Shown here in pieces: positions 3,222 to 18,300 of a stretch of DNA of 64,000 nt (the first letter of the stretch is position 1; the number at the start of each line of letters is the position of its first letter). A program made the translations under genes and the position numbers. Location of the stretch: positions 159,800-223,799 of the forward strand of contig JARVJZ010000002.1 in assembly GCA_029775855.1 (NCBI GenBank), read 5' to 3'. The DNA comes from Nitrososphaeria archaeon. Lineage in GTDB: Archaea > Thermoproteota > Nitrososphaeria > Nitrososphaerales > JAAOZN01. The notes under the pieces were generated by a model. That model was not told the origin of the DNA, did not search any database, and worked only from the letters and a program-made list of their open reading frames with translations.

Positions 3222-4010
3222 TCAGCCTAATCCTTTACTTTTCATCTTCCCAACGGCTTCAGAGAGCATCTGGAGAGCTTGAGCCAATGCATTTCTCGTC
3301 TCGTTAAGTTCCTTCCCCAACGCTTCAAGCATCTCCCTCGTCTTCTTAGACTCCTCAATCAAAGTATTCAATATCGTGGTAAGCTTCTCAGAGATCTCAC
3401 CATACCTCTCTAGAACAAATCTAAAATTTTCATCTGTTCTTTTAGCGAAGTCTCTGAACTCCTCCCTATAATCCTTGAACTCCTGCCTAAACTCTCTAAA
3501 CTCTTGTCTATAGTCTTTAAACTCCTCTCTGAAATCTTTGAACTCACCTCTAAAATCTCTAAACTCCTCTCTGAAATCCTTGAATTCACCTCTAAAATCT
3601 TTAAACTCCTCTCTGAAATCTTTGAACTCACCTCTAAAATCTCTAAATTCTTGTCTAAACTCTCTGAACTCTCCCCAGTAGTCTACGAAGATTGTTTGCA
3701 TCGCGCCGAAGCCCTCGCTCATCTCCTCCCAAAGTTCACCAGGCTTTATCACAAAGTATTTTATAGATGAATCTAACTCTGCTTTTTGTTCGCTAAACTC
3801 TTTTACAAAGGCTGGTGGTGGAGGGTTCTGTGCCCTTTTCACGAATTGTGTAAGATTCTCTTCGCTTCCTTGTGCAAAAACCGTGACAGACCCGTCTTTC
3901 TCGTTTACTACAAAGCCTGCTATCTGAAGATCTTGGGCAAGGTCGAGGATGTATCTTCTAAAACCTACTCTTTGAACCCTACCTTTAAATCTCAGCGTCA
4001 GAGCTTGCAA
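3222..4010 (-). CDS. acylphosphatase domain fused to heptad-repeat coiled coil
   Basis: Residues 1-90 are an acylphosphatase domain. The phosphate-binding loop GRVQRVGFR supplies the catalytic Arg18, and Asn36 in GFVVNEKDGS matches the catalytic Asn. Residues 114-190 are eleven consecutive near-identical heptads (EFKDFRE / EFRDFRG type), and 190-262 is a further predicted coiled coil rich in Glu, Lys and Leu. Ordinary acylphosphatases are ~90 residues and stand alone, so this is an unusual fusion. The coil probably oligomerises or tethers the enzyme. ATG start; no obvious operon partner. Confidence 0.75.
   Translation of the reverse strand: MQALTLRFKGRVQRVGFRRYILDLAQDLQIAGFVVNEKDGSVTVFAQGSEENLTQFVKRAQNPPPPAFVKEFSEQKAELDSSIKYFVIKPGELWEEMSEGFGAMQTIFVDYWGEFREFRQEFRDFRGEFKDFREEFKDFRGEFKDFREEFRDFRGEFKDFREEFKDYRQEFREFRQEFKDYREEFRDFAKRTDENFRFVLERYGEISEKLTTILNTLIEESKKTREMLEALGKELNETRNALAQALQMLSEAVGKMKSKGLG
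3441..3671 (-). repeat. 21-bp tandem repeat encoding 11 heptads
   Basis: Eleven in-frame 21-bp units code for residues 114-190 of the acylphosphatase fusion. Each unit reads E-F-(K/R)-(D/E)-(F/Y)-(R/A)-x. The units are very similar at the DNA level, which implies recent expansion by slippage or unequal crossing-over. Confidence 0.85.
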
Positions 4011-4073: not shown

Positions 4074-4892
4074 CTACCAAGCTTTTCTAGCAGCTAGCAC
4101 CTTCTCCACCTCTGCAGTAATAGGAATGTTCTTAGCCTCCAAAGCTCTCACTAATGCAGCGTGCACCTCCTGGCGAATAATATAGCCAGCTTTATGCAGA
4201 ATAGTATCCCCAATTTCAGGGTCAACATCCATGCTTGCTGTGCACGGGTAGCCGTGGTGAGCATTAGAAGTGTTTTGATTAAGATCCTTAACGTGGGTGA
4301 ATCTGAGTTTCTGAGCAACATACCATGTGTCGCCACAAGGTGCGCTTCGCTTAACCACAATGTTCTTGATCAAGTATCCCTCTAGTTCCATTTCGAGTTT
4401 TGGTCTGCCGATTGAGTATCTGCGTATGAATTCATTTATAACTTCGCTTCCGCTTTCCTCAAGTTCGCAGAAGGGTTTAGGGAATGCGTGTTCAATACCT
4501 AACTCGCTTAGTTCATCTTGCAGCCTAGATCTTAGTGCTGGCGGGCACCAGCTTCTGTTTTCGATTGGCACTATGACAGCCTTCGCTTCTGCCTTTGAGG
4601 CTACAGAGGGGATCTCCGCTAATATATCTGGGTGGATGCCTATTGGGATAACTATGTCAGATTTAGGTGGGGATTTTGGTAGATATTCGCTTGGGTTGTC
4701 GATGAAAGGAGGCAGATTGGGTGGTATAGGGTGCAAGCCGACGATATCTCGAACATAAGAGCCGTAGGATATTCTACAGTAGCCGCAAGCAAGGTCACAA
4801 GACTTACAGAAGGTGGGTAGGTTAACTAGGTTCCCTACAACCTTCTCCCCGAATTCGTGCCCTACTATAAAGTATAGCTTCAACGCTTCCAT
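4074..4892 (-). CDS. DUF166 family protein
   Basis: A 272-residue protein resembling the archaeal DUF166 family, whose biochemical role is not established to my knowledge. The N-terminal Cys motif (C29, C32, C36, C39: CKSCDLACGYC) could bind metal or an Fe-S cluster. Further conserved-looking Cys sit at the WCPP, APCGDTWY and GYPCTAS segments. The C-terminal third (APCGDTWYVAQKL..., HHGYPC) has the look of an active site. It stands alone, with 181 bp on the same strand between it and the acylphosphatase gene. Confidence 0.65.
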   Translation of the reverse strand: MEALKLYFIVGHEFGEKVVGNLVNLPTFCKSCDLACGYCRISYGSYVRDIVGLHPIPPNLPPFIDNPSEYLPKSPPKSDIVIPIGIHPDILAEIPSVASKAEAKAVIVPIENRSWCPPALRSRLQDELSELGIEHAFPKPFCELEESGSEVINEFIRRYSIGRPKLEMELEGYLIKNIVVKRSAPCGDTWYVAQKLRFTHVKDLNQNTSNAHHGYPCTASMDVDPEIGDTILHKAGYIIRQEVHAALVRALEAKNIPITAEVEKVLAARKAW

Positions 4893-15317: not shown

Positions 15318-18300
15318 GAATCTCACATAGAGAATTGAAAGTTGAACCGTATTTCAACCGTTGCGCCTATGTCGACTCTTGTGAATCTCACATAGAGAAT
15401 TGAAAGTTCAGGTAGTATAGCTTGTAATTAAGCTTCGAATGTTTTGAATCTCACATAGAGAATTGAAAGCATACAAGGTCTCAACCAACGCCTTATCCCT
15501 AATATTCGAATCTCACATAGAGAATTGAAAGACCGCTTTCTTCAGCGGTTCACCGTCGCCGTCAACATCGAATCTCACATAGAGAATTGAAAGTACCTAG
15601 TTCTGGGTCTACCAAGCCTCAAGTAAGCTTTGAATCTCACATAGAGAATTGAAAGTAACTGCTTACGGGTATGAGGAAGATGAAGCTGGGGTTGAATCTC
15701 ACATAGAGAATTGAAAGACAATCACAAGTATCAGGCTCCCAAATCACTCCCTCAACAGAATCTCACATAGAGAATTGAAAGACATAACCCTGTTTTAGCG
15801 GTTATTATGGCTTTAATGTTTGAATCTCACATAGAGAATTGAAAGTTAGGAGCGATTTCTATAGGTGTCGTGCCAACAGGAATCTCACATAGAGAATTGA
15901 AAGATCCCAAATCCTCGGAGCATCAAGCCCCTTAGATCTGGCAGAATCTCACATAGAGAATTGAAAGAAGAAACGTTAATTACTGGTTTGTTCAGCGATT
16001 TCATCAAGAATCTCACATAGAGAATTGAAAGTCCACCTAAATTGTCTTTAGGCGTAACCTTAATCTTGTTGAATCTCACATAGAGAATTGAAAGACTAGT
16101 TGAAGAACCGCTTTACACCAGCAGACTACCTGAGAATCTCACATAGAGAATTGAAAGCGAAGAAGTTGTGGTGAATGTTTATTTCCTCACAATAATCTAG
16201 AATCTCACATAGAGAATTGAAAGCCACAGTCTAAGCATCTTTTGTATATTTTGCCGTTCTTCTCCTGAATCTCACATAGAGAATTGAAAGTCAGCAGTCA
16301 CAATAGGAGTGACGATGCGATGATGAGTGGGAATCTCACATAGAGAATTGAAAGTATACTGTAAAATCTGCTGTAGTATAAATCTCTAGCTAGAATCTCA
16401 CATAGAGAATTGAAAGTTATTGTCCAAAGCCCCGTTGTTGATGAGGAATATAGAATCTCACATAGAGAATTGAAAGATGTTAACTCACTAAACCGATGAT
16501 GCTCATATTCTTCAACGAATCTCACATAGAGAATTGAAAGTAGGTAGAAATATAATATGCAACAATAACCTACTTGGAAGAATCTCACATAGAGAATTGA
16601 AAGTCAGGAGCGCCATCCTGCTGTCCGATTGTCGGCATTTTGAATCTCACATAGAGAATTGAAAGACTAGTTGAAGAACCGCTTTACACCAGCAGACTAC
16701 CTGAGAATCTCACATAGAGAATTGAAAGTGCTCTTTTTCGCGCTACTTTACCCGTCTTTAACAGATGAGAATCTCACATAGAGAATTGAAAGTCACAATA
16801 ATCTGTGTGTAAAGCGCGAGCTCGACCAAAGTGAATCTCACATAGAGAATTGAAAGTATTTGTCGTATAGATGGTTGAATTTAAGAGTAAGCAGAATCTC
16901 ACATAGAGAATTGAAAGAGATCTTCCTCTTCAAGCCACGGGTAGCTATACCGCTTATGAATCTCACATAGAGAATTGAAAGGTTATCTGTAGGGTCTGGT
17001 CTCACATCGACATATCCTAGCTCGAATCTCACATAGAGAATTGAAAGATAGTGCTGGAGATCACACCGGAGAGCTTATGCTTTCAAGAATCTCACATAGA
17101 GAATTGAAAGACGGCACCACTCACCACCTCATACCTAACCCCATCTACATGAATCTCACATAGAGAATTGAAAGTAAACCCACACTTGACCTCCTTCTGC
17201 AGTAGTCCCTCCAGAATCTCACATAGAGAATTGAAAGGAAGCTGACCAAAATCGTTAACAAAAAATATATCACTGAATCTCACATAGAGAATTGAAAGTA
17301 GAAATCACAGTAGTTTTGCTTGGGTTCAATATGCATCCAGAATCTCACATAGAGAATTGAAAGCAATATGGGTAAATGGTAAGAAGCAGTCAGCAAATCT
17401 TTTGAATCTCACATAGAGAATTGAAAGTGCTCATCAACCGAATTCTGATGCAAAGCACACTTCTTAGAATCTCACATAGAGAATTGAAAGTTTATTTCCT
17501 CCTTTGGTTTGAGTTTTGATAGTGTGAAGAATCTCACATAGAGAATTGAAAGCCTGTTCTAAATTTTTCTAGCATCTCTTCTCTTTCTCTTGAATCTCAC
17601 ATAGAGAATTGAAAGACCCTAGACTATATCCTGCTCCTAAGGTGAAGTAGGAATCTCACATAGAGAATTGAAAGAAATACTCGTGCTACCTTAGTATCAC
17701 TTATGAAGTGGCAGAATCTCACATAGAGAATTGAAAGATTCCTCTCCTTGAATAACTAAAGTCTCTATTAGGTAAGAATCTCACATAGAGAATTGAAAGA
17801 CAGTGTGGTGTTTTTGGCTCATGTCCCCATGCCCCTGCTGAATCTCACATAGAGAATTGAAAGCTTTGCTACTCCTTGCAGGAATAGTATAATCTGTCCG
17901 AATCTCACATAGAGAATTGAAAGTCTGCTCTCCAGCTGCGAATGTGAGAGGCGGTATGGAATCTCACATAGAGAATTGAAAGATGAACACGACTGGCAGC
18001 ACCGTAAAACCACCGTAAGGGGAATCTCACATAGAGAATTGAAAGTAGCCGTGATAGAGAACGAGCAGTCTCCACCCCATCTCATGAATCTCACATAGAG
18101 AATTGAAAGTTTCGACAAGCCGCAGCACAGCCTCTTTGTGAGACAGAATCTCACATAGAGAATTGAAAGCATTTGAGACGCATTAAATCGTCGAAGGAGA
18201 TGCCGACCAGAATCTCACATAGAGAATTGAAAGAAAAAATAAAGTCGAAAGCCACAATATCTGAGCCAGAAGGTATGAATCTCACATAGAGAGTTGGGTG
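15318..18300 (+). CRISPR. CRISPR array: 48 repeats of 24 bp, 47 spacers
   Basis: The repeat begins GAATCTCACATAG and ends GAATTGAAAG, the ATTGAAAG end typical of archaeal class 1 (type I-A-like) arrays. Repeats 1 to 47 (15318-15341 through 18210-18233) look identical to the eye. The last, 18277-18300, is altered in its 3' part (AGAGAGTTGGGTG), which marks the leader-distal end. Spacers are 34-43 bp, mostly 38-40. The spacers at 16095-16133 and 16666-16704 are identical. No cas gene lies in this window, so the Cas proteins must act in trans. Confidence 0.98.

Follow-up and report, generated by a model that had tools for sequence, protein, structure and literature searches.

An archaeal acylphosphatase domain on a length-variable heptad stalk with an all-aromatic core

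Introduction

Why would an acylphosphatase (AcP) domain carry a long and nearly uniform array of heptads, and what might such an array do for it? The question is raised by one gene in a stretch of 64,000 nucleotides (the window, positions 159,800 to 223,799 of contig JARVJZ010000002.1) from the Nitrososphaeria archaeon assembly GCA_029775855.1. A first-pass annotation, made from the sequence alone, described an AcP head fused to an eleven-heptad coiled coil and a second coil, and proposed that the repeat might link many copies or measure length between the enzyme and a partner. Here we analyze the head, the array, the tail and their relatives, and weigh what the architecture may be for.

Results

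The gene and its acylphosphatase head

The coordinates of the gene (Table 1) are exact, and its product, read from the TTG start, has 262 residues. The triplets TAA AGT GGT GGG stand directly 5' of the TTG, and there is therefore no start further upstream; the starts of homologues fall at about the same position. The fusion of an AcP domain to a heptad array is confirmed as a real architecture, with chance excluded: the Pfam domain is present and eleven heptads can be counted. The gene lies on the minus strand, a detail that the first-pass annotation does not give.

Table 1. Positions in the window of the AcP-coil gene, its parts and the neighbouring DUF166 gene.
Feature	Positions	Strand	Basis or remark
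AcP-coil gene	3222..4010	minus	262 aa; TTG start at 4010, stop 3222-3224; start agrees with homologues
Acylphosphatase domain, residues 6-88	3747..3995	minus	PF00708, AF2, Foldseek
Arg18 codon (VQRVGFR)	3957..3959	minus	catalytic-type residue, from sequence
Asn36 codon	3903..3905	minus	catalytic-type residue, from sequence
Neck helix, residues 93-113	3672..3734	minus	conserved residues; AF2 helix from residue 93
Eleven-heptad array, residues 114-190	3441..3671	minus	all-aromatic a/d core
RTDENF motif, residues 191-196	3423..3440	minus	array/tail junction; conserved in tail alignment
C-terminal helical tail, residues 191-260, YGEISEKLTTIL type (T1)	3231..3440	minus	tail alignment, T1 profile search, AF2
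DUF166 gene	4074..4892	minus	PF02593 E=1.2e-64; 63 bp upstream of AcP-coil gene, same strand

The head matches Pfam family PF00708 with an E-value of 1.6e-19 (70.4 bits, against a curated cut-off of 22.5), and the AF2 model assigns this part a pLDDT of 87-98 (blocks of ten). When that model is used as a Foldseek query, AcPs rank first, among them 4ojg from S. solfataricus (E=3.5e-9, TM by target 0.90), and 3br8 is also matched (E=3.9e-9); by sequence, the solved AcP 4ojh matches at E=7.5e-10. Arg18 and Asn36, which we take to be catalytic from the known enzymology of the AcP family, stand at the expected places, as the first-pass annotation had claimed. Both are kept in 48/48 class A relatives, class A comprising 49 frames, one of which has undetermined residues and is omitted from the conservation and spacing counts. 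The P-loop departs from the usual VQGVG(F/Y)R in that residue 14 is Arg (VQRVGFR), whereas the S. solfataricus AcP has Gly; Arg14 is invariant in class A, and the same Arg is also present in the short bacterial AcPs L089 and L091-L093. Because of this replacement, activity may be altered. The fold and the catalytic-type residues are those of an enzyme-like module, from which we infer that the head is active.

Neck, aromatic array and tail

In the AF2 model (monomer, 35-sequence alignment), one unbroken helix extends from residue 93 to residue 260 behind an AcP fold; the mean pLDDT is 84.6 and the pTM 0.46, with helix pLDDT values mostly between 66 and 88. The structure prediction that the first-pass annotation had suggested as a check is thus in line with it, and its second coil is borne out as well, since the model helix reaches residue 260 and the tail is conserved in relatives. 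At 0.15 nm per residue, simple arithmetic gives a length of about 11 nm for the array and about 25 nm for the entire helix.

The neck, in which E96, E99, G100 and G102 are invariant among the 35 aligned sequences, lies in the heptad register of the array (a = W94, F101 and F108; d = M97, M104 and Y111). Because it continues that register backwards, the coil begins directly where the AcP domain stops. The heptads of the array start at residues 114 to 184, with units such as EFREFRQ, EFRDFRG and EFKDFRE. The near-perfect EFxxFRx pattern described at first pass holds: E-F opens 11/11 units, an aromatic residue follows three residues past that F in 11/11 (9 F, 2 Y), and R comes after the second aromatic in 10/11. 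With the first F at a, the F or Y falls at d, the R at e and the E at g. Hydrophobicity has a period of 3.50 residues (power 5.1; none of 5000 shuffles exceeded 1.83), as expected of a coiled coil, and the signal lies within the predicted helix 93-260.

In ordinary coiled coils, a and d are mostly Leu, Ile or Val. The core of this array is aromatic at a and d in every unit, as in a Phe zipper (11/11 in the window), and the same holds for the family. Over 209 in-register heptads from 37 proteins, a is Phe in 99% and otherwise Leu, d is Tyr in 53% and Phe in 47% (aromatic 100%), g is Glu in 99%, and b is Arg in 78% and Lys in 17%. The 77 residues of the window's array comprise 20 F, 2 Y, 15 R, 7 K, 17 E and 9 D.

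At the junction with the tail, the RTDENF motif appears to mark a phase shift of four residues, after which the heptad phase would run through F196, V199, Y203, I206, L210, I213 and L217. Among 26 genomes, the T1 tail profile matches in six, in every case at AcP-coil genes or a broken remnant, and the profile of a second tail type, T2, matches at 16 places in nine genomes. The long frames at T2 places are AcP-coil genes; the others are mostly broken or cut-off frames or contig ends, and L171 is a weak match (E=7.5e-6). In these 26 genomes the tails are thus almost only found in AcP-coil genes or in broken or cut-off frames, L171 aside.

Growth and length variation of the array

Tandem Repeats Finder describes the array DNA as a 21-bp unit (10.5 copies, score 197) or a 42-bp unit (5.4 copies, score 247). 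Self-identity of the array-core DNA rises from 0.73 at a lag of 21 bases to 0.92 at 42 and 0.98 at 84, and we therefore read the array as having grown recently through blocks of two and four heptads. The codons TTT and TTC alternate along with the alternating units; the aromatic residues are kept while their codons vary. The same program reports a second tandem repeat elsewhere in the window (17840-17982, 59-bp unit, 2.4 copies).

The spacing between neck and tail, measured from EGFG to the first RTDxNF, ranges from 22 to 120 residues and equals 1 modulo 7 in 37/38 proteins, L007 being the sole out-of-phase T1 case. These 38 are the class A proteins with an RTD-type anchor; of the other ten among the 48, five have another tail type (4/5 in one phase, L076 off by one residue) and five have neither. 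Nitrosocaldus-type members have repeated RTD motifs, of which the first alone is in the 1-modulo-7 phase. The array apparently gains and loses whole heptads only. Selection is not demonstrated by such in-phase spacing, which slippage in 21-bp steps would produce by itself.

Repeat number varies between close relatives, as the first-pass annotation had thought possible given the likeness of the units. The heads of L011 and L067 are 96% identical and their arrays one heptad apart; the corresponding figures are 85% and one heptad for L047 and L048, and 86% and seven heptads for L050 and L078. L073 and L077, with heads identical in the tree, also differ in their arrays, L073 containing an assembly gap. 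At the extremes, L078 has neck and tail with zero extra heptads between them, in a frame that runs to the contig edge, and L042 has neck and tail with about fourteen. Exact heptad numbers are uncertain because most of these genomes are metagenome-assembled and repeat arrays may be collapsed or gapped: runs of N lie within L073, L038 and L136, L086 is apparently frameshifted, and L066 ends at a contig edge. Homologues without the repeat, which were to count against the first description, do exist as stand-alone AcPs, but heptads are rarely missing where the neck and tail are present.

In the Nitrosocaldus-type members L004, L005, L010 and L070, most aromatic heptads are replaced by RTDANFAELKQEIRSFA-like repeats of 18 residues, which would be a heptad plus a hendecad.

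A widespread family with paralogues

A contig scan and genome searches together gave 49 distinct relatives with the same neck motif, from Nitrososphaeria, Bathyarchaeota and their neighbours. The scan of named contigs yielded 55 loci, most of them of the AcP-coil type, from Geocrenenecus, Wolframiiraptor, Pelearchaeum, Caldarchaeum, Calditenuis, Nitrosocaldus, Bathyarchaeota, Geothermarchaeota and Culexmicrobium; loci L089-L093 and L095 are short bacterial AcPs. An AcP match of some kind is present in 52/61 genomes (the window's own and 60 relatives), many of the frames being stand-alone AcPs or of HypF size. In a class-wide sample, 225/250 genomes have a profile match at E<=1e-10, mostly to the AcP part alone; E<=1e-30 is reached in 16/250, none of them from f8 or f10, the families that form most of the sample.

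A profile of the aromatic array matches in 22/200 genomes. The loci fetched from this search hold 26 distinct array-bearing frames, 20 with the AcP motif by pattern and L198 with the motif by eye. Four more (L193, L197, L204 and L205) are broken or cut and have the neck or the T1 tail, and L202 has neither, so that 25/26 carry an AcP head, a neck or a T1 tail.

The window's genome encodes three further AcP-coil paralogues, with heptads of the KQDQMLA, GDIKEMK and TDIKEMK types, as well as one 106-aa AcP frame and one 806-aa frame, and AcP-coil paralogues with other heptads recur throughout the phylum. In a tree of 85 heads, built on 93 columns and with many forks open, classes C and D each form one strongly supported group, and class A falls together, fragments apart. 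These comparisons indicate that AcP-coil fusions form a widespread family whose paralogues use different heptad chemistries, a point absent from the first-pass annotation. Class C (VQDVGYR) was considered as a degraded AcP lacking the Asn, and this was rejected: its Pfam AcP match has E=2.6e-11, and an Asn lies one residue further on. In another class of AcP-coil proteins, represented by L059:4671-5330, L135 and L138, the AcP domain carries an insertion; L135 and L138 have the same aromatic heptads and a T2 tail.

Gene neighbourhood and genome context

The gene upstream belongs to the DUF166 family and is related to the DfsP (seleno)protein model NF041372, with a score below the cut-off. The two genes may be co-transcribed; this adjacency was not found at other AcP-coil loci. 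Clustering of the neighbours of those class A loci that have flanking sequence, up to four genes to either side, brought out no recurrent one: the widest cluster, sugar epimerase-like, covers five loci, the next four, and the other clusters listed three. The neighbourhood clusters give no functional link to a substrate or partner. By eye, a HAD-type gene stands downstream in L057, L067 and L085, and a SIS-type gene is common to L057, L075 and L085, each in too few loci to use. Near the AcP-coil genes of L043, L054 and L070 lie other coiled-coil genes with near-identical repeats of their own (e.g., WEEVRALREGQ).

The protein also matches the Pfam family Halo_GVPC (PF05465) above its cut-off (30.5 vs 22.4 bits), although no single stretch passes. 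We rejected a gas vesicle reading of this match: GvpA has no match in the window's genome, and Halo_GVPC is not among the matches of L042. GvpA is present in 6/61 genomes, with genes above the Pfam cut-off at G002:C68:4618-9060, from the window's genus, and in five other relatives. A viral origin was likewise set aside, as one scan of viral contigs returned 79 pattern matches, none encoding a relative; in PHROG the protein matches a short family of AcP-like proteins and, beyond that, coils.

Discussion

Known parts in a new architecture

Placing an AcP on a heptad stalk combines known parts in what we rate as a new architecture. Stand-alone AcPs (PF00708; S. solfataricus 2bjd and 4ojg) share the fold, the Arg and Asn and the size of the head, but they are without neck, array and tail and have Gly where the window protein has Arg14. 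HypF likewise begins with an AcP domain (matches to 3vth and 4g9i), but it is about 740-770 aa long, with other domains and no heptad stalk; the HypF model TIGR00143 scores 41.2 bits on the window protein, over the AcP part only, against a cut-off of 466.1. Closer in taxonomy, the SelD-like fusions of Thermoproteales, archaea of broadly the same phylum, also join an AcP-like domain to another module (PMC4210487). There the AcP-like domain is joined to a SelD-like enzyme, the article's main text does not use the word 'coiled', and Pfam finds no SelD-like domain within the 262 aa of the window protein. We found no account of an AcP-coiled-coil family in the PubMed Central literature searched, from which subscription journals are mostly missing.

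For the array, the PDB offers in-register sequence matches to 2guv (E=0.0026; five chains) and 2gus (E=0.0062), which we take to be the Lpp-56 phenylalanine zippers of Liu et al. 2006, and to the designed CC-Type2-(YaFd)4, 7boa (E=0.23). Looser matches to natural proteins include an inclusion membrane protein (E=0.0023, the best of all), H. pylori FucT 5zoi (E=0.0061), a T7 tail fibre (0.017) and apolipoprotein A-I (about 0.5); for such simple coils, E-values are weak evidence. For all-aromatic packing, the PDB sequence matches point chiefly to engineered peptides. Those peptides share aromatic residues at both a and d with the AcP-coil array but are short; the array is natural, runs to about fourteen heptads, sits on an enzyme domain, and has Phe at a and Tyr or Phe at d. 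Liu et al. 2006, on the Lpp-56 zippers, is a reference entry in PMC3152878, and an APS Phe zipper is described in a passage of PMC4634320. Designed cores with Phe at only a or only d collapse to six- or eight-helix bundles, according to a passage in PMC6175849.

What the stalk may do

We think it probable, with somewhat better than even confidence, that the best explanation is a cytosolic AcP-domain protein whose heads are bundled by an aromatic helix stalk with a conserved tail and a drifting number of heptads. The head would be joined through the conserved neck to one long helix, and several copies would zip into a parallel bundle, with AcP heads at one end and tails at the other; the tail most likely fixes the register or binds a partner. 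Zipping is the most likely behaviour because of the strict heptad core, Phe at a and Phe or Tyr at d, and an array that links many copies, as the first-pass annotation suggested, fits both this core and the in-register match to designed Phe zippers. Heptad number would drift as units of 21 and 42 bp are added or removed, given that the ends are constant and the length between them spans none to about fourteen heptads; the coil would tolerate whole heptads only, and conserved function would reside in head, neck and tail. The fuller proposition, that in archaea of hot environments a natural, length-variable, all-aromatic coil bundles catalytically competent AcP heads, perhaps four or five, is more tentative, and we rate it as falling short of probable.

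The array could instead act as a ruler, in which a heptad number tuned in each lineage sets the distance from the head to a partner at the tail, as is thought for Helicobacter FutA/FutB. These fucosyltransferases likewise combine an enzyme with a heptad array of strain-variable copy number (passages in PMC5358919 and PMC4202792), and 5zoi, matched above, is such a FucT, but the enzyme is unrelated, the unit is DDLRINY, and AcP head, neck and tail are lacking. The nearest precedent is FutB, whose heptads number 12 in one strain but 4 in its mouse-passaged derivative (PMC5358919). Stalks of 22-120 residues built of whole heptads suit a ruler, and tuning species by species is compatible with the data; one fixed length for the family, as the length-measuring role proposed at first pass might imply, is disfavoured by L078 with none and L042 with about fourteen. 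Near relatives one to seven heptads apart, a member with none, central units apparently amplified recently at the DNA level and the want of a known partner all speak against a ruler, which we regard as possible but unlikely.

That the aromatic face grips another surface, such as a protein lattice, a membrane or a gas-vesicle-like shell, and not its own copies, is distinctly unlikely. The Halo_GVPC score and the weak apolipoprotein A-I matches lend it something, but GvpA is absent from the window's genome, L042 lacks the Halo_GVPC match, and long unbroken heptads with Glu at g and Arg at e would be better suited to self-association. It is very unlikely that the heptads, through Arg plus Tyr/Phe stickers, collect many AcP heads in droplets or fibres: a strict heptad register and a predicted helix point to ordered packing, even with an array so rich in F and R and even though helical fibrils form from a peptide of one heptad whose two core positions are Phe (as a passage in PMC4634320 has it). 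Most improbable is a non-catalytic head that senses phosphate or acyl-phosphate and relays a signal through the coil, since Arg18 and Asn36 are kept throughout class A and no signalling partner gene recurs in the neighbourhood; the invariant Gly-to-Arg change in the P-loop and the several paralogues per genome alongside a stand-alone AcP would be its best arguments.

If the bundled-head reading is true, these genes constitute a widespread and undescribed archaeal family in which a multimerising stalk is attached to an ancient enzyme whose purpose is obscure. The family offers a way into the role of AcP in archaea, as a partner might be traced through the tail. It would also provide a natural series, with the same ends and differing heptad counts, in which to follow the effects of an aromatic core on oligomer number, length and heat stability.
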